DNA of 51,817 nt from a virus: the IMG/VR virus record IMGVR_UViG_3300044822_000145, positions 1-51,817 of that record, one strand, 5' to 3'. This document shows positions 1-51,817 of this stretch, one piece after another. Both the position numbers and the translations under genes were made by a program. Under the pieces are notes generated by a model, which had not been told where the DNA came from, searched no databases, and saw only the letters and a program-made list of their open reading frames with translations. Position 1 is the first letter of the stretch; every line of letters begins with the position of its first letter.

Positions 1-637
1 CGCGGACCTCAGCCGCGCGGACCTCAGCCGCGCGTACCTCAGCGGCGCGGACCTCAGCAGCGCGTACCTCCGCGGCGCGTACCTCCGCGGCGCGTACCTC
101 CGCGGCGCGGACCTCAGCAGCGCGTACCTCCGCGGCGCGGACCTCATCGGCGCGGACCTCAGCAGCGCGTACCTCCGCGGCGCGGACCTCATCGGCGCGG
201 ACCTCAGCGGCGCGGACCTCAGCCGCGCGGACCTCAGCCGCGCGGACCTCCGCGGCGCGGACCTCAGCCGCGCGGACCTCAGCCGCGCGGACCTCAGCCG
301 CGCGGACCTCGAACCAATTCGCGAAGACTTTCGCCTTGTTCTCGATGCGGCGAAGCCTGAAGTTCCCGCGCTACTGCAAGCGATCAAAGACGGCAAGGTT
401 GACGGCTCAACATACACGGGTCCATGTGCGTGCCTCGTCGGCACGATCGCCAACGCACGCGGCGTCGATTATCGGCACGTCGTCGGATTGGATCCAGATT
501 TATCGCGCCCGGCAGAGCGATTCTTTCTCGCGATTCGTAAAGGCGATACGCCGGAGAATAATCAGATAGCGGCAATCGCGGCGCAGTGGATTGAGGATTT
601 TTTAGCAGATCAGTCAACGACGGCGGAAGCGATCTAA
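1..637 (+). CDS. Pentapeptide-repeat protein, 3' part (continues from 51503)
   Basis: The frame starting at base 2 gives 20 consecutive five-residue units of the form A(D/Y)L(S/R)(R/G/S), then about 108 non-repeat residues up to TAA at 635-637. Pentapeptide repeats fold into a right-handed square beta-helix. The C-terminal part (motifs GPCACLVGTIANARG and LDPDLSRPAERFFLAIRKGD) resembles a domain I recall from other phage pentapeptide proteins of unknown role. The 5' part lies at 51503-51817 on the other contig end, so the gene probably spans the junction of a circular molecule. Joining the ends directly adds one base and breaks the frame; overlapping the terminal C restores it. The repeats are nearly identical at DNA level, so the copy number given by the assembly is doubtful. 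The function is unknown; DNA mimicry, as in Qnr/MfpA, is possible but not shown. Confidence 0.8.
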   Translation, partial: ADLSRADLSRAYLSGADLSSAYLRGAYLRGAYLRGADLSSAYLRGADLIGADLSSAYLRGADLIGADLSGADLSRADLSRADLRGADLSRADLSRADLSRADLEPIREDFRLVLDAAKPEVPALLQAIKDGKVDGSTYTGPCACLVGTIANARGVDYRHVVGLDPDLSRPAERFFLAIRKGDTPENNQIAAIAAQWIEDFLADQSTTAEAI

Positions 638-6127: not shown

Positions 6128-6693
6128 GATGCTTCTTTCACGTATTGACTCCATGCGACATCGACGTTCAATGAGACCGCCGAAAAGTTTATCCAGTCTT
6201 GGAAGACTGAAGCACCATAGTTCTGTCCCGTCGTCCACGCATCCGGGCTGACATGCTCGGCCAGCTCCAAGCCGACGCCCTGGATTCCCAAGTTGTAGGC
6301 AGCGAACGCGGCGATGTGATCGTTCGGGTACTTGTGAAGCGCGGGTTCGAGAAACTCGTGCGCGGCGACGCGCAGGTTCGTGAGAGGGTCCATGAGGTTG
6401 CCGTAGCCGGGATAGCTTGGAAACACCCCGCGCCATTGGACGCCGAAGGTAATCTGACAAATTCCGGCACCCACCCCCGGCCCAGGTATCATCCCACGCT
6501 GCAAGATATTCTCGCCACCTGATTCTCTGTCCACGATCGCCGCGAGCATGCACGGCTCCGTAAGCGCGCAACCGGCAACGGCTTCCGTATAGAGCGGCGC
6601 GTAGGCCATGAGCGCCTTGCGCCACGGCACCGCAAATGCGGGCTTCTTTTGAGCCGCGAGCGCGGCGACTTGCTGCACCGTGAGGAGTCCCAT
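6124..6693 (-). CDS. Endolysin, SLT-like lytic transglycosylase, 189 aa
   Basis: The chosen start is ATG at 6693 (MGLLTVQQVAALAAQ); longer starts would run over the divergent promoter and gene at 6743. The fold is lysozyme-like: AIVDRESGGEN puts the catalytic Glu at 57, followed by a glycine-rich turn (GPGVGAGICQITFG) and AFAAYNLGIQG, the usual third motif of transglycosylase SLT domains. Such enzymes cleave the MurNAc-GlcNAc bond of peptidoglycan. No signal or SAR anchor is seen, so release needs a holin; the best holin candidate lies far away at 47039. Confidence 0.8.
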   Translation of the reverse strand: MGLLTVQQVAALAAQKKPAFAVPWRKALMAYAPLYTEAVAGCALTEPCMLAAIVDRESGGENILQRGMIPGPGVGAGICQITFGVQWRGVFPSYPGYGNLMDPLTNLRVAAHEFLEPALHKYPNDHIAAFAAYNLGIQGVGLELAEHVSPDAWTTGQNYGASVFQDWINFSAVSLNVDVAWSQYVKEAS

Positions 6694-6726
6694 GCCCGAG
6701 GCCTTCAGGAGCGCGGCGCGAACGCC

Positions 6727-6742
6727 TGGTATAATGGGGCCA
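6727..6742 (+). promoter_or_regulatory. Extended -10 promoter for the late unit, leaderless
   Basis: TGGTATAAT (perfect TATAAT at 6730-6735 with a TG extension) is followed by 7 bases and then the ATG at 6743. The predicted transcription start is at or within a base or two of the ATG. No clear -35 is seen, which fits an extended -10 promoter. Confidence 0.65.
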
Positions 6743-7234
6743 ATGCTACATGAGATACGAGAGATGCCCGTAAGCGAACTCAAAGCCGCGCCGTACAATC
6801 CGCGTAGGATCGACGCGGCTGCGATGGCGGCGCTTACCAAAAGCATCGAACGATTCGGCTATGTGGAACCGATCGTATTCAACAAGCGCAGCGGCTTCGT
6901 TGTCGGAGGTCACCAACGGCTCAAGGTGTTGCGCGCAAGTAAGATCAAGGAAGTCCCGGTCGTGATCGTTGACCTCGCCGAGAACGAAGAGAAGGCGCTC
7001 AACGTCGCGCTGAATTCGCCGACTCTCGCCGGTGAGTTCACGGATGATCTTCAAGCTATGCTTCAGGATATTCAATTAAAAGATGAATCGTTATTCGAAA
7101 GCCTTTTGTTCGATAAACTCTTGGGTGAAGGCGCGCCTACCTTCGAACCGGAGAATATAGAATCGTTAAAACGTCTTGACGAGAAAAAGATGATCGTCTG
7201 CCCGAACTGTCAACATGAATTCTCTCAATCCTAG
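6743..7234 (+). CDS. ParB/Srx-fold N-terminal-domain protein, 163 aa
   Basis: The start at 6743 gives MLHEIREMPVSELKAAPYNPR, the standard first strand of ParB-like phage proteins; starts further upstream lie in the promoter. Residues 35-75 carry EPIVFNKRSGFVVGGHQRL, where GGHQR is the conserved ParB/sulfiredoxin nucleotide-binding box. The C-terminus ends in CPNCQHEF, half of a zinc ribbon. Phage relatives are often next to DNA methylases or other modification genes; here the Mom gene overlaps by 20 bases. The biochemical role (CTP binding, nuclease or adaptor) is not settled for this family. Confidence 0.8.
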   Translation: MLHEIREMPVSELKAAPYNPRRIDAAAMAALTKSIERFGYVEPIVFNKRSGFVVGGHQRLKVLRASKIKEVPVVIVDLAENEEKALNVALNSPTLAGEFTDDLQAMLQDIQLKDESLFESLLFDKLLGEGAPTFEPENIESLKRLDEKKMIVCPNCQHEFSQS

Positions 7235-7856
7235 TCTTCACATAGCGCCATGCACGTTAGAAGCCGCTGAATACGCATGTAAGAATTATCATTATAGCGG
7301 AAAATTGGCAGGTAAAGGACTATCAACTGTCCCATTCGGCGTTTGGGAAAACGGTATTTTTGTAGGTTCAATTATGTATGGCCTTGGAGCAACGGGAAAT
7401 ATCGGAAAACCGTTCGGGCTCGTAAAAGGCGAAATTTGTGAACTCGTTCGAATCGCGTTAAAAAAACATGAGACACCGGTATCTCGAATGCTCGCAATTA
7501 CAGTAAAAATGCTGCATAAGAGCTCTAATGGTCTTCGTATGATCGTAAGCTTTGCCGATTCGGGACAAGGCCATCACGGCGGAATTTATCAAGCATGCGG
7601 ATGGATATATCTCGGGAAAACTTCAGGGAATGGATATTTTTTTATACGAGGAAGAATCGTACACTCAAGGAGTATTCATGGTAAATATGGGAGCGGCACT
7701 CAATCTCTCTCATGGATACGAAAGAATCTTGACCCAAAGGCAACACCCGTTCAAACAGGAGCAAAACATAAATATGTTTGGTGTTACGACGAAAGATTAA
7801 AAAGGAAAATAACCGCTATATCTCTTCCATATCCAAAACGTGCGCAGGGAGCATGA
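7215..7856 (+). CDS. mom: Mom-family DNA adenine hypermodification protein, 213 aa
   Basis: The sequence matches the Mu Mom family: CKNYHYSGKLAGKG near residue 23, GVWENGIFVGSIMYGLGA, then KPFGLVKGEICELVRIAL, HETPVSRMLAI and SFADSGQGHHGGIYQA. Mom has a GNAT-like fold and in Mu turns adenine in DNA into N6-methylcarbamoyl adenine, protecting DNA from host restriction enzymes. The gene is clearly richer in A+T than its neighbours, a sign of separate acquisition. It overlaps the ParB-like gene upstream and the tRNA downstream. Mu controls mom with the zinc protein Com; no separate com gene is seen here. Confidence 0.88.
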   Translation: MNSLNPSLHIAPCTLEAAEYACKNYHYSGKLAGKGLSTVPFGVWENGIFVGSIMYGLGATGNIGKPFGLVKGEICELVRIALKKHETPVSRMLAITVKMLHKSSNGLRMIVSFADSGQGHHGGIYQACGWIYLGKTSGNGYFFIRGRIVHSRSIHGKYGSGTQSLSWIRKNLDPKATPVQTGAKHKYVWCYDERLKRKITAISLPYPKRAQGA

Positions 7857-7962: not shown

Positions 7963-8388
7963 ATGGCTGGAAGACCTAAAGGCACATTCGGAACGAAGAG
8001 AATTACAAAAGAACTTACGAAAAACATATGCGACCTAATAGAAATAGGTATGCCTCCGCATTATGCAGCACAGGAACAAGGCATATCTGAAAGACTATTT
8101 CAGATATGGATGCAACTAGGACGACAAGCACAAGAAAAAGACGAATGGATTAAGTCCTATTCCGATTTTTTTTCGGAGATAGCGCGCGCCCGCGCGCGTT
8201 GCATAAAAAGGATGCTTGTGCGGGCTCATACTGGTGAGAAGGGAAGTAGTACGGCTATGTGGGTTCTCGAAAAACAGTACAGAGAAGAATTCGGCTCATC
8301 AAAGCCCGATGACGGAAAGCAACAAATAGAGATCGTCGTTAAAAATGCCATACGCGAGCGCGATAGTGAGAGCGAATGCCAACAATAA
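7963..8388 (+). CDS. terS: Terminase small subunit, 141 aa
   Basis: The N-terminal region is basic (MAGRPKGTFGTKR), followed by a helix-turn-helix (PPHYAAQEQGISERLFQIW) that would bind the packaging site, then a long helical oligomerisation region and an acidic C-terminus. The gene lies directly before and overlaps terL by 13 bases, the usual arrangement. Its base composition is lower in GC than the following genes. Confidence 0.75.
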   Translation: MAGRPKGTFGTKRITKELTKNICDLIEIGMPPHYAAQEQGISERLFQIWMQLGRQAQEKDEWIKSYSDFFSEIARARARCIKRMLVRAHTGEKGSSTAMWVLEKQYREEFGSSKPDDGKQQIEIVVKNAIRERDSESECQQ

Positions 8389-9641
8389 CGCTGCCCAGGC
8401 TGCATGGTGGACAGAATGACATCCTCGCGGGCGAAGGGCGTTTCAGAGCCGTGCGGTGCGGTCGCCGCTTTGGGAAAACCTATCTCGCATCCACGCTAAT
8501 ATGCGACGGCGCAGCATCGGGAGAATCATGGGGGCTCTTTGCGCCTGATTACAAGATTCTTTCGGAAACGTATCGTGAGATACATGAAATACTTGATCCG
8601 ATTATTCTTTCATCCTCCAAAATAGACGGCGTAATCCGCGTTCTCGGCGGCGGGCGCGTGGATTTTTGGACCTTGAATAATCCTCGCGCTGGACGCTCGC
8701 GCAAGTATCACGGCGTTATGATCGACGAAGCAGCGTTCGCGGATAAAGACATGGAATCGTTGTGGACGAAATCTATTAAGCCGACGCTGCTCGATTACGG
8801 CGGCATTGCATGGGCGCTATCAACACCCGCAGGCAAAGACGAAGACAACTGGTTCTACCAAATCTGCAACGACAAGAGCCTCGGCTTCGTCGAGTTCCAC
8901 GCGCCGACCGAAAACAACCCGTACCTACCGCGCGAAGAAGTCGCCAAGCTCAAGGATGAAAACTCACCCGAAGTTTACCGCCAGGAATACCTCGCGGAGT
9001 TCGTGGATTGGTCCGGCGTCGCGTTCTTCTCGATTGACGCGCTTCTCGTTGACGGTAAGCCTGTTCCGATGCCGACGATGTGCTATACGGTATTCGCCGT
9101 AATCGATACCGCGATCAAAAGTGGCGAGGAGCACGATAGTACCGGCGTCGTTTACGTTGCATACAATCCCCTCATAAAGCCGTGTACAGTCCTCTTGGAT
9201 TGGGACATTCTCAGCATAGAGGGTGCGCTCCAAGAAGTATGGCTATTGACCGTCTATGAGCGGTGCGAACAGCTAGCGCGCCAATGCGGCGCACTGAAAG
9301 GCTCTATGGGCGCGTTCATCGAGGATAAGGCGACGGGCAGCGTCCTCATCCAGCAGGCCAAGAACAAGGGCAGGCCCGCGTCTGAGATCGACTCCAAACT
9401 CACCGCGATGGGCAAGGACGAACGCGCTATCGCGGCGTCTCCCTACGTGTACGCGGGCGACATCAAAATCGCGGATGAGGCGTTCAATAAGGTTAAGGTA
9501 CATAAAAGAATTTCCGCCAATCACCTCGTCAAGCAAGTCACGGGCTTTCGCATCGGCGACAAGGGGACGGGCAAACTGGACCTGCTCGACTGCTTCACTT
9601 ACTCCATCATCATCACGCGAAACAAGCTTTGGCCGAGGTAG
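8376..9641 (+). CDS. terL: Terminase large subunit, 421 aa
   Basis: The ATPase that drives DNA into the prohead. Walker A is CGRRFGKT at residues 28-35. Walker B with the catalytic Glu is GVMIDEAAF (Asp117-Glu118), followed by the coupling motif LSTPAG. The C-terminal RNase H-like nuclease carries AVIDTA and FIEDKATG with the expected acidic residues. Length is normal for the family. It starts inside terS. Confidence 0.95.
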   Translation: MPTITLPRLHGGQNDILAGEGRFRAVRCGRRFGKTYLASTLICDGAASGESWGLFAPDYKILSETYREIHEILDPIILSSSKIDGVIRVLGGGRVDFWTLNNPRAGRSRKYHGVMIDEAAFADKDMESLWTKSIKPTLLDYGGIAWALSTPAGKDEDNWFYQICNDKSLGFVEFHAPTENNPYLPREEVAKLKDENSPEVYRQEYLAEFVDWSGVAFFSIDALLVDGKPVPMPTMCYTVFAVIDTAIKSGEEHDSTGVVYVAYNPLIKPCTVLLDWDILSIEGALQEVWLLTVYERCEQLARQCGALKGSMGAFIEDKATGSVLIQQAKNKGRPASEIDSKLTAMGKDERAIAASPYVYAGDIKIADEAFNKVKVHKRISANHLVKQVTGFRIGDKGTGKLDLLDCFTYSIIITRNKLWPR

Positions 9642-9678: not shown

Positions 9679-10272
9679 ATGTTCAAGAAGTACGTCACAG
9701 AATCTTTAGCTCGCATTGAAGGGATACTACTTACCATGGCTACAGCCCAGATCAATAACCAGGCAGCACTCGACGCGGCAATCGCCGCCGTACAGGCAGC
9801 CGTAACGCAGCTCGGTGCGGATCAGACGACCGCGATTGCCGCGCTCCTCGCGAAGATCGCGACGCTTCCCACGGGCGCCGGCGGCACGACCGATTTCACC
9901 CCGGAAGTAACGTCGCTTCAGACGATCGCGGCGAAGCTCACCTCCTTGGACGCTTCAGCCGTCGCCGCGAACCCTGCTGGAACCACGGGCACAGGCACGG
10001 GAACCGGAACAGGCGCGATCGTCGCCAATCCGGCAACGCTCACGATCGCCGGAGGCGCAGGCGCGACCGGCACGTTTTCCGTCACCGAAGCGGCGAACCC
10101 GTCGGCGACGTTCACGGCAGTAAGCTCGGCTCCGAACATCGCGACGGTCACCCCGGCCAATACCGCCGGCTCGTTCACCGTCACGGTCGTAGCCAAGGGC
10201 ACCGCAACGATCAATGTCTCGGACAACGCGACCCCGCCCAACACGGCGACCGTAGCAGTCACCGCCTCCTAA
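9679..10272 (+). CDS. Coiled-coil plus Ig-like domain protein, probably virion-associated, 197 aa
   Basis: Residues about 1-90 are helical and Ala-rich (NNQAALDAAIAAVQAAVTQL), resembling a coiled-coil stalk. A Gly/Thr linker (GTTGTGTGTGTG) follows, then a bacterial Ig-like (Big_2-type) domain with strands such as TFTAVSSAPNIATVTP and ATINVSDN. Such small stalk-plus-Ig proteins in phages are usually surface decoration or fibre proteins that bind carbohydrate weakly. A second start at 9736 (MATAQINN) is possible. Confidence 0.65.
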   Translation: MFKKYVTESLARIEGILLTMATAQINNQAALDAAIAAVQAAVTQLGADQTTAIAALLAKIATLPTGAGGTTDFTPEVTSLQTIAAKLTSLDASAVAANPAGTTGTGTGTGTGAIVANPATLTIAGGAGATGTFSVTEAANPSATFTAVSSAPNIATVTPANTAGSFTVTVVAKGTATINVSDNATPPNTATVAVTAS

Positions 10273-10497
10273 CCCGTTCCCTACAAGCGAGGCGAGCGAG
10301 GAAGCATCAGGGCGTCGGGCAACCCGCGCTCTTTTGTTTTTCCTCGTCCTATTGTTGCTTCCGGCTCCAGCGAGGATGCGACCGCAGTCGCACCGCAGTC
10401 GGAGCCCCCCGCGCCCATCGGGTGCGGCTTTCAACAAATCGGCGGCACGCCGATTCTCCTTATTGGTATGATAGTCGCGCACGTTTACGCACAACCG

Positions 10498-10606
10498 TGT
10501 CTCCCCTGAAACTCCCAGGGGAGACATACGTGTGTCTCCCCTCAGGGGAGCTAGAATCTGTCTCCCCGTAGCAAGCGAGCAGGGGAGACAATAGGGTGTC
10601 TCCCCT
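10498..10606. repeat. Seven alternating inverted repeats TGTCTCCCCT / AGGGGAGACA
   Basis: Copies lie at 10498-10507 (+), 10517-10526 (-), 10533-10542 (+), 10544-10550 (-, shortened), 10559-10567 (+), 10581-10590 (-) and 10597-10606 (+). The strict alternation lets neighbouring copies pair into hairpins. The array abuts the stop codon (10608-10610) of the leftward HTH gene. By analogy with iterons beside replication initiators it may be a binding array or a replication origin; tandem terminator hairpins are another reading. Confidence 0.85.
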
Positions 10607-10607
10607 A

Positions 10608-10958
10608 TCAGGCTCCTCTCTGCAATCGGTATTCCGATCCGAGGTGCGCCGAGCGCGTGGTTTTCGTAAGGAATCCGCCCTTCTCTAGCGAGACTAGCGC
10701 GCGTTGAACGCTGCGCTCCGATACGAGGGCGTCATTAGCTATCGTCTTTTTCTTGGGATGACAAAAGCCGTTCACGTCGGCGTATGACGCGAGAACGAGA
10801 AGCACTTTCAATTCAAGGTGCGTTCGTACGTTGCGCTGCCATGATCGCGGCACGCATCCAAACGGCTCGCCGATGCAATGCACCGGGCGGCGAGATGTCG
10901 TGTCCGCGTAACTCTGATATGTCGTAGGGCCGGGCTTCCTGCCCGTAGTATCATTCAT
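10608..10958 (-). CDS. HTH_36-type initiator-like protein, possibly truncated, 116 aa
   Basis: The start at 10958 (MNDTTGRKPGP) has AGGA upstream. Residues about 45-110 form a winged helix-turn-helix of the phage replication-initiator type (LKVLLVLASYADVNGFCHP, KKTIANDALVSERSVQRAL, LEKGGFLTKTT). The protein ends right after the wing, where the repeat array begins. A +1 frame stays open through the array for about 47 codons and encodes repeated GDT and SP motifs, so the gene may have lost a longer C-terminus by frameshift. It resembles the HTH of the gene at 49943. It lies antisense inside the late unit. Confidence 0.65.
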   Translation of the reverse strand: MNDTTGRKPGPTTYQSYADTTSRRPVHCIGEPFGCVPRSWQRNVRTHLELKVLLVLASYADVNGFCHPKKKTIANDALVSERSVQRALVSLEKGGFLTKTTRSAHLGSEYRLQRGA

Positions 10959-10988
10959 GGGCATTCCTATGGCGGGCATGCGTGGATG

Positions 10989-11022
10989 AAAAGCGCCTGG
11001 CTTGATCGTTTAGGCGCTTTTT
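10989..11022. terminator. Bidirectional hairpin terminator
   Basis: A 10-bp stem AAAAGCGCCT / AGGCGCTTTT with a 13-base loop and a following T run reads as a terminator on both strands. It lies just upstream of the leftward HTH gene and before the rightward gene at 11092, so it may insulate the HTH gene or act as its attenuator. Confidence 0.8.
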
Positions 11023-11091
11023 GTATTTAGGTTGAGACGAAGAACGCTCCTAGCGAACGGAGGCGTACTCGTCCGCGCGGAAGGTGCGCCT

Positions 11092-11259
11092 ATGAGATTG
11101 CTTGACGATCCCGAGCAAAAGGAAGACGGAACCGTACTCCTGGGCTTGCGCCAGGTGCTTCCAGATAACTCCGATCGCTACGTTGGAATCGAGTTCTCTC
11201 GCGAGGAAGCGAAGGAATACGGCGGCATTCTCATAGAGGCTGCGTCGCACTATGCGTAG
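11092..11259 (+). CDS. Hypothetical protein, 55 aa
   Basis: The start is ATG at 11092 (MRLLDDPEQKEDG), with GGAAGG 7 bases upstream; a TTG at 11032 is possible but has no ribosome site. The protein is a small acidic alpha/beta piece (TVLLGLRQVLPDNSDRYVGI) with no known motif. It overlaps the next gene by 8 bases and precedes the portal gene. Confidence 0.5.
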   Translation: MRLLDDPEQKEDGTVLLGLRQVLPDNSDRYVGIEFSREEAKEYGGILIEAASHYA

Positions 11260-11449
11260 ACCTATCGAAGCCCTTGCTCGCGAACTTTCGAAAGAGACAG
11301 ACTTGAGCGTTACGGCTGGAGATATGGCGGACAAGCATCGAGAAACTCCCGAGCGAATCATGGATGCGTGGCAAGTACTCAAGATTCTTGAAATAACTGA
11401 CATGCTGGATGAAAAGCCGCTTACCTACATAGGGGGCAGTCATGTATAA
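11252..11449 (+). CDS. Hypothetical helical protein, 65 aa
   Basis: ATG at 11252 lies inside the previous gene, and the end overlaps the portal start by 8 bases. The protein is all-helical with a possible helix-turn-helix (VTAGDMADKHRETPERIMDA). It may bind DNA or be a small assembly factor; no family is recognised. Confidence 0.5.
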   Translation: MRRPIEALARELSKETDLSVTAGDMADKHRETPERIMDAWQVLKILEITDMLDEKPLTYIGGSHV

Positions 11450-12926
11450 CTCCAGCCCGGAGCAGAGCGATACGCCGTCAACGGTCTCCGTGGGCGGGCA
11501 ACTTGGCTCCGTGCTTACGAATCTGCTCATGTGCGGAGAGATTGTGCCGGGCTCTCCGATTGGGTACGAATTGTGCAAACAGTTGCATGCGTTTCACGTA
11601 TTAGGGGCTCTCCTTACCGATGCGCCGATAACGCGCGCACAGAGCAAGAAGCGTGAAATTAGCGTTCCCGTCATTCTCGGAGAGCAACGCATCGTCGAGC
11701 AATTCGAGAAAACGTATCGTGAATTAGGCAAAGTCGGCGCAACGGTTGTCATACACAACCTTGTTAAGACGAGCCGCATCTATGGCATTGCATCGCTTGC
11801 TGTGGGCGAACGCGGGAAGGGCACGAACACGCCGCTCGACCTCGCGAAAATAGCCGAATCCGACTTGTATTTCAACGTACTCGACCCGCTCAACACGGCG
11901 GGAAGCCTCGTTCTCAACCAAGATCCCAACAGCCCTGACTTCCTCAAACCTGACGACAACGTGCATGTGCAAGGGCAAGCATGGCATCATTCTCGCCTCT
12001 TCGTCAAAATGAACGAGCAGCCGATTTATATTGAGTGGTCTGCATCGGCTTTTGGTTTTGTAGGTCGCAGTATTTATCAGCGTGCGCTATACCCGCTGAA
12101 ATCATTCATCCAATCCATGCTAACGGACGACATGGTAACGCGCAAAGCCGGGCTCCTCATTGCGAAAATGGAATCCCCCGGCAGCATCATCGACAACATC
12201 ATGGGCTCCATGTTCAACTCGAAGCGCGCGAAGATCAAGGAAGGCGTAACGAATCAAGTCGCATCAATCGGCGTAACCGAAGACATTCAAACGCTCAACA
12301 TGCAGAACCTCGATAAAGCGTTTTCCGCAGCGCGTACGAACATCCTCAAAAACATTGCAACCGCAGCGGGAATGCCCGCGTCAATCATCGCGCAAGAAAC
12401 CATGACCGAAGGCTTCGGAGAAGGCGTTGAGGACGCGAAGAAAGAGGTCGCATACCTCAACTACATCCGCGAGGACATGCAGCCTGCGTATGACTTCGTG
12501 GATAAGATCGTCATGCGCCAAGCGTGGACGAAAGAGTTCTATGATTCGCTCAAGCCTGATTACCCGAAGTTAGCGCCGTATGAGACATGGCTGTACGAGT
12601 GCATTCACGCCTTCAAGGCGGAATGGCCGAACCTCATGGAAGAAGCGGATAGCGAGAAAAGCAAAACCGAGAAGGTGAAAATGGAAGCGGTCATCGCGGT
12701 CGCCGAAGCCGTTGCAACGCAGTGCGATCCCAAGAACAAAGCCAAAGTCCTCGCCTGGATCGCCGATAACGTCAACGCATGCGAGAACCTCTTCGCGGGC
12801 AGGCTCGACATCGACGAAGACGACCTCGCGGAATGGGCGGAAGAGAACGAAGCGGCGCAGCAAGAGGCGGAAACCGCAGCGGATAAGCCCGCAGGGCGAC
12901 CGAGGCCGTTCTCGGCGGCGTCCTAG
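11442..12926 (+). CDS. Portal protein (DUF1073-like), 494 aa
   Basis: Portal proteins form the dodecameric DNA gate at one capsid vertex. Length, position between terminase and head-morphogenesis genes, and patterns such as SRIYGIASLAVGER, SIYQRALYPLKSFIQSM, then AAGMPASIIAQETMTEGFGEG fit the DUF1073 portal family. The C-terminus is acidic, then Ala/Pro-rich, and probably faces the scaffold. Translation is coupled to the upstream small gene. Confidence 0.85.
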   Translation: MYNSSPEQSDTPSTVSVGGQLGSVLTNLLMCGEIVPGSPIGYELCKQLHAFHVLGALLTDAPITRAQSKKREISVPVILGEQRIVEQFEKTYRELGKVGATVVIHNLVKTSRIYGIASLAVGERGKGTNTPLDLAKIAESDLYFNVLDPLNTAGSLVLNQDPNSPDFLKPDDNVHVQGQAWHHSRLFVKMNEQPIYIEWSASAFGFVGRSIYQRALYPLKSFIQSMLTDDMVTRKAGLLIAKMESPGSIIDNIMGSMFNSKRAKIKEGVTNQVASIGVTEDIQTLNMQNLDKAFSAARTNILKNIATAAGMPASIIAQETMTEGFGEGVEDAKKEVAYLNYIREDMQPAYDFVDKIVMRQAWTKEFYDSLKPDYPKLAPYETWLYECIHAFKAEWPNLMEEADSEKSKTEKVKMEAVIAVAEAVATQCDPKNKAKVLAWIADNVNACENLFAGRLDIDEDDLAEWAEENEAAQQEAETAADKPAGRPRPFSAAS

Positions 12927-49835: not shown

Positions 49836-49876
49836 TAGTTGCGTAACTAGTTGCTATCGGCATGGCGCATAGTTGG
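49836..49876. promoter_or_regulatory. Operator-like direct repeats TAGTTGC
   Basis: TAGTTGC at 49836-49842 and 49848-49854 (12 bases apart) and TAGTTGG at 49870-49876 (22 bases further). Direct repeats of one or two helix turns next to a ribbon-helix-helix gene fit cooperative dimers binding one DNA face. Confidence 0.6.
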
Positions 49877-49928
49877 CAACGTGGGAGCTATCCTCCTTGC
49901 GGGGAGTTTTTACGACGACGGGGGAAAC

Positions 49929-49959
49929 AAAAGAGCGGCGCTATGAACGCCGCTCTTTT
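49929..49959. terminator. Perfect 12-bp hairpin before the replication initiator
   Basis: AAAAGAGCGGCG pairs perfectly with CGCCGCTCTTTT around a 7-base loop (CTATGAA). It can end transcripts on both strands and overlaps the possible ATG at 49943 of the initiator gene. It may act as an attenuator and also isolates the leftward RHH gene. Confidence 0.75.
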
Positions 49960-51010
49960 AATCTCTCTCCTGGAAGATCGAGACGCCTTGAAACGTACCA
50001 CAGAACCTACGCAACCCCCTACCTTTTCGGTAGAACGAACAGCCGAGCAACGCAGCATTCGCCCTCGTCGATTCGCAAAATTCGATCCCGAATGGATTCC
50101 GTTTCTCCCGAATCCGACGGCGCAAACCGTCTTTTTGGTATTGCTTTCCCATGCTCGTTCCGATGGGGAGTGCTGGCCGCGACGGACGACGATTGCGAGT
50201 ATGGCGCATATCTCCCTATGCCATGTCAGCGAAGCATTGCGCGCCCTTGAGGGCATCGGAGCGGTGAAAACAATTCATACAAAAGGCAAAAGATCGAGGT
50301 ATAAAGTCATGTTCCACCCTCAAGAATCAGTAGTACCGGATTCCGGTATCACCCCAAATGGAGTGGTACCGGATTTAGATACTACAGTAGTACCGGATTC
50401 CGGTAGTAGTCAGGTATCGGAATCCGGTACTACACGTAACAGACCAGGGAACATATCAATGAACATAACGTCGCGCGTGCGTGCGCGAGACGACGGCGAA
50501 GAAAAAACGACCGACGAGGAAGCAGGGGAAGCATCGGACTTTATTTTGTGGTTTCTCAAATCGGGCGTCGATGCCGGAGTTCTTCGGCAGTCCCTCGATA
50601 TTCATGCCGCAGCGCAGGGCGAATCGCTCCCGCACGCCGAGAAGCTAATCGGCACATGGGGACGCGCCGAATGTGAGGCGCGAACCCTGCGATTCTTTAC
50701 CGCCGTCGATTCGGCTAAATTGCGCCGTGCGCCGACGATCGAGGGATTTGCCGGAGCGTGGGATTGCTCTGCATTGAAGCCCCGCCAATACAAATCGCGC
50801 ACCGAACCGGGATGGCTGGCCTCTGCAATGGATGACGTTCGCAAACGTAAGCAGGCGCAACTTCGAGAACCAACGGACGGCGAGGCGCGCGTCCTAGAGA
50901 TTTGCTATCAATGGCAATGCGGCGTCTCAATCCCTATGCCGCTTGACCTCAAGCCGCTCTTGGATACGATGCGCCTAACGATAGAACTTCCGCGTCGCCC
51001 ACGCACATGA
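49943..51010 (+). CDS. Replication initiator O-like, HTH_36 type, 355 aa
   Basis: The ATG at 49943 lies in the loop of a strong hairpin; TTG at 49987 is an alternative start, and the ATG at 49943 is kept as the longest plausible choice after the upstream operator. Residues about 45-125 are a winged HTH (FLPNPTAQTVFLVLLSHARS, PRRTTIASMAHISLCHVSEA, LEGIGAVKTIHTKGK). Residues 129-165 are encoded by iterons and are low-complexity (VVPDSG repeats). The rest is a helical region (EKLIGTWGRAECEARTLRFF) that may bind a host helicase loader. The layout equals lambda O with the origin inside the gene. Confidence 0.75.
   Translation: MNAALLISLLEDRDALKRTTEPTQPPTFSVERTAEQRSIRPRRFAKFDPEWIPFLPNPTAQTVFLVLLSHARSDGECWPRRTTIASMAHISLCHVSEALRALEGIGAVKTIHTKGKRSRYKVMFHPQESVVPDSGITPNGVVPDLDTTVVPDSGSSQVSESGTTRNRPGNISMNITSRVRARDDGEEKTTDEEAGEASDFILWFLKSGVDAGVLRQSLDIHAAAQGESLPHAEKLIGTWGRAECEARTLRFFTAVDSAKLRRAPTIEGFAGAWDCSALKPRQYKSRTEPGWLASAMDDVRKRKQAQLREPTDGEARVLEICYQWQCGVSIPMPLDLKPLLDTMRLTIELPRRPRT
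50330..50436 (+). repeat. Iterons inside the initiator gene, probable origin
   Basis: The palindrome TACCGGATTCCGGTA occurs at 50334-50348 and 50391-50405, a half copy TACCGGAT at 50367-50374, and a variant TATCGGAATCCGGTA at 50415-50429. Flanks often extend to AGTAGTACC or GGTACTAC. Spaced, partly palindromic repeats within the initiator coding region resemble oriLambda; the nearby sequence is not notably A+T-rich. Confidence 0.75.
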
Positions 51011-51173: not shown

Positions 51174-51500
51174 GTGGAATCAAACACGCTCATCCCGCTT
51201 TCCATTCTCGACCGCCATCTTCTCGAAACCGCCGAAGGCAAATGCGACTTCCCCGGATGCGGCAAGGTCCTCACGCGGCGCGGGATGGGCCGGCACAAGG
51301 CGATCCATGCACGCAAGGCTCCGGCGAACCCGAACGACGCGATTGTGGAGAAGCTACGTATCCGGTGCCGGCAACGAGTTGCGGAACTACTCGCGCTCGT
51401 TTCGCATTGGGATAATCCAGAGTTCACCCCTGAGTTACGCGACGTAGTGAAGCATGTTAGAGAACTACATGCCGACCTTGACGTATTGGGAGTTATCTAA
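51174..51500 (+). CDS. C2H2-like zinc-finger protein, 108 aa
   Basis: GTG at 51174. Residues 24-45 read [20 protein letters not shown] then IH, giving C-x4-C-x11-H-x3-H, close to a classical C2H2 finger. The rest is helical ([37 protein letters not shown]). C2H2 fingers are rare in bacterial and phage proteins apart from Ros/MucR-type regulators, so it is probably a DNA-binding protein of the early unit. It lies between the initiator and the pentapeptide gene. Confidence 0.65.
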
Positions 51501-51502
51501 CC

Positions 51503-51817
51503 ATGACAATAGACGACCTCAAAACCATCCTTGCCTCTCATCTCAAGTGGTTAAAGAACGAAGATGGCGGAAGCCGCGCGTACCTCCGCGGCGCGTACCT
51601 CCGCGGCGCGGACCTCAGCCGCGCGTACCTCAGCGGCGCGGACCTCCGCGGCGCGGACCTCAGCAGCGCGTACCTCCGCGGCGCGGACCTCAGCAGCGCG
51701 TACCTCCGCGGCGCGGACCTCCGCGGCGCGGACCTCAGCCGCGCGGACCTCCGCCGCGCGGACCTCAGCCGCGCGTACCTCAGCGGCGCGGACCTCAGCA
51801 GCGCGTACCTCCGCGGC
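51503..51817 (+). CDS. Pentapeptide-repeat protein, 5' part (continues at base 1)
   Basis: ATG at 51503 follows the previous stop by 2 bases. A 25-residue N-terminal segment ([19 protein letters not shown]...) precedes 16 pentapeptide units that run to the contig end; with 20 units at the other end there are at least 36. Only a few codons are used in each position (GCG, GAC or TAC, CTC, AGC or CGC, CGC/GGC/AGC), so the DNA is almost a 15-bp tandem repeat, prone to slippage and to assembly collapse. Confidence 0.85.

Follow-up and report, generated by a model that had tools for sequence, protein, structure and literature searches.

An initiator-like winged-helix protein beside an array of alternating half-sites in an uncultivated phage

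What is the role of a short initiator-like protein whose gene stops at the edge of a cluster of inverted repeats, in a phage that encodes another, O-like initiator elsewhere? The question is raised by a locus in the record of an uncultivated virus, 51,817 bases long, the whole of which was analyzed and is referred to here as the window. A pentapeptide-repeat-type gene with 15-nt periodicity spans both record ends (window 1-400 and 51468-51817). Since both ends lie inside one repeat-rich gene, the record is probably a near-complete genome that was broken within the repeat. The locus is flanked by head genes: a small-terminase candidate (7963-8388), a terminase (8376-9641), and an Ig-like protein (9679-10272) on one side and the portal (11442-12926) on the other. 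Baseplate proteins, a helicase, a RecE-like exonuclease, and the O-like initiator are also encoded in the window. Among named genomes, the best match of the portal is a Candidatus Eremiobacterota MAG (59%), and thus Eremiobacterota may be the host phylum. Shortly ahead of the terminase genes, a Mom-like DNA modification protein (window 7215-7856) adjoins a ParB-like protein (6680-7234).

The HTH_36 gene and its half-site array

The features of the locus are as follows.

10608-10979, minus strand: HTH_36 protein P0001, 123 aa
10597-10606, plus strand: half-site 7, TGTCTCCCCT; N6 dyad with copy 6; the copy 7/6 dyad is missing from the sister phage L016
10581-10590, minus strand: half-site 6, partner of copy 7
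10559-10568, plus strand: half-site 5, one mismatch; N5 dyad with copy 4
10544-10553, minus strand: half-site 4, two mismatches; T variant common to L016
10533-10542, plus strand: half-site 3; N6 dyad with copy 2
10517-10526, minus strand: half-site 2, partner of copy 3
10498-10507, plus strand: half-site 1, single
10425-10474, no strand assigned: 50-nt block adjoining the array, identical in L016
10437-10455, no strand assigned: hairpin AATCGGCG-GCA-CGCCGATT, inside the 50-nt block
10989-11021, no strand assigned: hairpin AAAAGCGCC...GGCGCTTTT, in the gap from the HTH start to the rightward genes; altered but still present in L016

P0001 matched HTH_36 (PF13730) with an E value of 2.6e-11 and 43.6 bits, against a gathering cut-off of 25. 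A start at residue 6 (10964) is likelier than the first ATG, because this upstream ATG is ATA in L016. A preliminary description of the locus had called the gene initiator-like, and the protein does resemble the replication-initiation PHROGs 1032, 270, 4617, and 391 (E values of 1e-8 to 1e-11), over the winged-helix (wHTH) region only. It ends about 13 aa past the wHTH match, without the C-terminal helicase-recruiting domain typical of O-like initiators. In the AlphaFold model (mean pLDDT, 71.5), a confident wHTH occupies approximately residues 45 to 119 and the N-terminus is disordered. Neither the domain search nor the model revealed a nuclease or other second domain within the 123 aa, and a search against the sequences of solved structures gave no match. 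The fold matches were generic wHTH proteins with no clear winner, including DnaD, TubR, and the initiator domain 4pt7 (Z 9.1), which we take to be a domain of pSK41 RepA. Judged from these sequence matches, P0001 is a relative of the O-like phage initiators reduced to the winged-helix DNA-binding domain.

The array comprises seven TGTCTCCCCT half-sites in alternating orientation within 109 bp (10498-10606), as first described. Read on the gene strand, it runs AGGGGAGACA-N6-TGTCTCCCCT (copies 7/6), CGGGGAGACA-N5-TAGCTCCCCT (copies 5/4), AGGGGAGACA-N6-TGTCTCCCCT (copies 3/2), and a lone AGGGGAGACA (copy 1), i.e., three AGGGGAGACA-N5/6-TGTCTCCCCT dyads and one single site. The P0001 stop codon (10608-10610) is separated by 1 bp from the nearest half-site, which ends at 10606, so the gene had been correctly placed against the array to within that base. 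When the array itself was shuffled, a mean of 0.37 and a maximum of 3 half-sites were obtained versus the 7 observed, and when the 1.5 kb around it was shuffled, no stretch of 109 bp held more than 2. No further TGTCTCCCCT site with 0-1 mismatch was found anywhere in the 51.8 kb. Upstream of 10979, near the P0001 gene, there was no half-site within 2 mismatches; an ordinary autorepressor with an upstream operator was rejected for this reason.

Comparison with the sister phage L016

In L016, the portal, Ig-like, and HTH genes follow the same order as in the window, and the HTH protein, at the same locus, is 58% identical to P0001. The dN/dS of the HTH pair is 0.15, with synonymous changes near saturation, a value that cannot date selection to after the truncation. 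By this measure, purifying selection is shown to act on the P0001 protein. L016 has the same module in the same position, which does not fit a freshly captured replicon, and neither a phage nor a plasmid donor was identified. In searches of viral and genome contigs, plasmids, and related phage records, no P0001 homologue closer than that of L016 was detected, and within the collections searched L016 was the only array-bearing one; the DNA of the locus had no match in the phage collection. An alignment of diverse wHTH sequences proved too weak to be used for scanning. The exact dyad (20 specified bases) occurred in 8 viral contigs and a relaxed form in 81, the latter being close to chance expectation by a rough estimate; it was always a single palindrome and never an array. 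The sole HTH_36-like match in these dyad-bearing loci, in L069, lies kilobases from its dyad.

The L016 array aligns with the window array copy for copy and in register, with the N5 and N6 spacers kept, and the window has one extra dyad on the gene side. The half-site sequence itself has changed: where the window has AGGGGAGACA, L016 reads AGACCGGCCA on one arm and AGGGCGGCCA on the opposite arm. Each of the five shared copies differs at positions 5, 6, and 8; positions 1, 2, 7, 9, and 10 are kept wherever copies are comparable. None of 200,000 shuffles reached this pattern of parallel change. Both phages also retain the private T of copy 4 at position 9, which argues against simple homogenization of the copies. 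On the protein side, the HTH helices (residues 81-97, as placed by AlphaFold) are the most diverged part, with 6 of 17 residues identical versus 44 of 62 elsewhere from residue 41 (Fisher p 0.01, for a split picked after the alignment was seen). Taken together, the diverged helices and the parallel change of sites at fixed spacing point to a working protein-site pair, as judged from the single comparison of the window and L016.

The end of the gene differs between the two phages. The L016 HTH frame reads across the first dyad and meets a stop where the second one adjoins, and the peptide SYHTNKEN that follows resembles the post-iteron SYITSKEN of mEp010 O. Relative to L016, a net 5-nt indel shifts the window frame just ahead of the array, where P0001 ends; followed in the window, the L016 frame is open across the whole array. 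An alternative frame open through the array had been noted in the preliminary description and taken as a sign that the iterons had once been part of the coding sequence. The frame is indeed open, but so are two of the three minus-strand frames, which makes this weak evidence by itself. The former in-gene position is plausible in view of the L016 frame crossing the first dyad, although open frames alone prove little.

Three further relatives, L010, L011, and L012, have the flanking genes in common with the window, with a different sequence between them and no HTH. The absence of the HTH gene and array from these phages marks the module as optional cargo between head genes rather than core. In L010 (4960-5960), about 1 kb of extra sequence, missing from the window, lies between the terminase and the Ig-like gene. 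The next minus-strand gene past the array in L016 (L016:3227-3511) encodes a small protein with a weak match, below the Pfam cut-off, to the Acb2/Tad1 hairpin domain. It is possibly an anti-defense cargo gene beside the HTH-array module; the window has the array without this gene.

Iteron placement in relatives and known systems

The second initiator gene of the window provides an internal comparison.

49943-51010, plus strand: main O-like initiator P0002; likely start 49943
50330-50433, plus strand: P0002 iterons (TACCGGATTCCGGTA type), within the gene; sequence unrelated to the 10498-10606 array

The arrangement at P0001 had been described as a copy of that at P0002 with a different repeat sequence. 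The repeats do differ, and in both cases they lie 3' of the wHTH, but those of P0002 are inside its reading frame and those of P0001 begin just after the stop. A hairpin common to both loci, offered as a mark of initiator modules, does not serve as one: the element at 49929-49959 belongs to an approximately 90-nt element (window 49874-49963), with a terminator-like hairpin, which lies upstream of P0002 and recurs at G001:5925-6014 away from any initiator.

Most of the O-like relatives examined have iteron-like repeats immediately 3' of the wHTH. The repeats come after the wHTH-coding part, within the gene, in mEp010 O, L025, L026, L028, L029, and P0002, and likewise in a 221-aa protein of G001, L192, L197, L198, and L202. 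For P0001, P0002, L025, L030, L033, L192, and L198, the array score (160 bp) exceeded that of nearly all control windows; it was weaker in the remaining relatives and at background for several HTH_36 proteins (e.g., L199, L200, and L201). The sole control window to equal the score of P0001 presumably came from the pentapeptide-repeat gene. The closest full-length relatives of P0001 are L197 and L198 (336 and 327 aa), from Eremiobacterota genomes, which have repeats right behind the wHTH and a common C-terminal domain; residues 35-259 of L197 match the O-like PHROG 391. These two are homologues with an extended C-terminus, of the kind that the proposed search was meant to find. The viral contigs yielded no partner replicon with AGGGGAGACA iterons. 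The 221-aa protein (G001:33318-33983, equivalent to L033:2319-2984) is the product of the only HTH_36 gene found in G001 and bears iterons without a long C-terminal domain. Its gene appears to sit amid structural genes.

The C-terminal domain of lambda O recruits P-DnaB. Lambda O forms dimers and has iterons that are inverted repeats (PMC7466680). As at the P0001 locus, an N-terminal wHTH is followed directly 3' by inverted-repeat iterons in lambda O/ori-lambda and in mEp010 O, and the overall arrangement is a variant of this known layout. Lambda O-type genes differ in having an AT-rich region beside in-gene iterons, whereas P0001 ends ahead of its array, beside which no clear AT-rich region was seen. 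As reported previously, the RepA_N initiators of the pSK41 type have an N-terminal DNA-binding domain and Rep boxes in the center of the rep gene (PMC5703833). They belong to another sequence family, however, and unlike P0001 the full-length Rep has a primase-interaction domain; their likeness by fold (4pt7, Z 9.1) is equaled by that of many unrelated wHTH folds.

Shorter stand-alone proteins are also known. ValentiniPuff gp90 and proteins of the fecal contigs MT839936 and MT836036 are, like P0001, short HTH_36 proteins (85-106 aa wHTH). In ValentiniPuff (L027:2411-2894), CTGTGGAAA repeats follow the stop, with an array score not above background, and this could be an independent case. The MT839936 and MT836036 examples have only a terminator-like hairpin, unlike the P0001 array. 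Replication can be disturbed by iterons or by the DNA-binding portions of initiators, as precedents at other loci illustrate. In pIGRK, the shorter RepR' is an antagonistic short Rep protein (PMC6854812). Odn of phage ICP1 uses an initiator-type DNA-binding domain to target iterons and acts against PLE origins (PMC8263062). It differs from P0001 in having a nuclease domain and in attacking the iterons of another element, whereas P0001 lies beside its own array. Plasmids with oop-iteron sequences exclude rep-lambda phages, although the authors of that study doubted that the effect comes from handcuffing or titration (PMC3349717).

Possible roles of the module

The explanation that we favor, with a probability of about 0.6, is that P0001 is an initiator-derived protein consisting of the DNA-binding domain only, which together with its own cognate iteron array likely modulates or blocks replication. 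The seven half-sites would be its cognate iterons, placed where O-like initiators carry theirs. P0001 would bind the dyads, as its co-variation with the array indirectly suggests, probably in the form of dimers like lambda O, and the bound dimers might build an O-some-like complex that, with the C-terminal domain missing, would be unable to load a helicase alone. The likeliest use would be as a competitor, occupying or titrating origins and initiators that share its specificity, or in tuning the replication of the phage itself. As P0001 has no C-terminal domain and its array has no clear AT-rich opening region, a modulator or competitor is more likely than a free-standing origin. A more specific proposal, which we hold only tentatively, is an anti-competitor module in which the truncated initiator and the array block rival phages or plasmids of the same iteron specificity, with helices and sites changing along with their targets.

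The matching of initiators to iterons is already known. Here, all shared array copies have switched alongside the DNA-contacting helices at fixed spacing, and this natural protein-array pair would allow a direct test of how replication specificity shifts. Should the truncated protein block replication, the phage, which has an initiator of its own, would be carrying an interference device as cargo, in a logic akin to that of Odn against PLE.

A working secondary origin, at which P0001 would open the array DNA and helicase loading would be borrowed from the host or the main phage machinery, is an unlikely alternative that draws on the iteron-like layout and position of the array. The 221-aa protein of G001 indicates that a short initiator may suffice, but P0001 lacks the C-terminal domain altogether and the DNA adjoining the array is at most 53% AT per 40 bp, versus 60-70% beside the iterons of mEp010, P0002, and L033. 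GC skew, proposed earlier as a check for a second origin, showed no clear switch at 10.5 kb and was weak genome-wide, and close relatives lack the module at this locus.

It is rather doubtful that P0001 is a transcription regulator whose operator array controls an accessory neighbor or read-through from the convergent head gene. Folds of the wHTH type are frequent among regulators, and the Acb2-like gene, itself a weak Pfam match, lies next past the L016 array; yet the array is kept in the window without that gene, and the upstream side of the HTH gene carries no half-site. A search for sigma-70-like promoters from 10200 to 11500 found none, for a consensus that may not be that of the host, and the sequence similarity is to replication initiators rather than repressor families.

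The frame-shifting indel, the open L016 frame, and the SYHTNKEN peptide would also be expected of a decaying relic, i.e., a truncated initiator gene whose old iterons are being lost. We consider this improbable, given the dN/dS of 0.15, the parallel change of all shared copies with their geometry kept, and the identity in L016 of the 50-nt block beside the array. Still less probable is a role in packaging (cos/pac) or partition, the array being the site and P0001 the protein that binds it: the position between terminase and portal and the TubR chain in the fold list would suit it, but a small-terminase candidate is already present, the absence of the module from L010, L011, and L012 means that it is not essential, and no partition ATPase was recognized among the scanned proteins.

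Repeats acting as terminators or RNA hairpins are the least credible reading: the array RNA folds strongly in the window (z -6.0) but unremarkably in L016 (z -1.0), no T-tract follows any repeat and none was called as a terminator, and the separate hairpin at 10437-10455 is a possible transcript end. The preliminary description had coupled this reading with an HTH protein that normally ends here; the sole array-bearing homologue, in L016, does end close to this point, but the array repeats are not terminator-like. An Rfam search matched nothing in the window, including a GC-rich inverted element, GGCTCC...GGAGCC (window 10363-10406), that is conserved in four related phages (the window phage, L010, L011, and L016) and occurs in L010 and L011 without the HTH gene.
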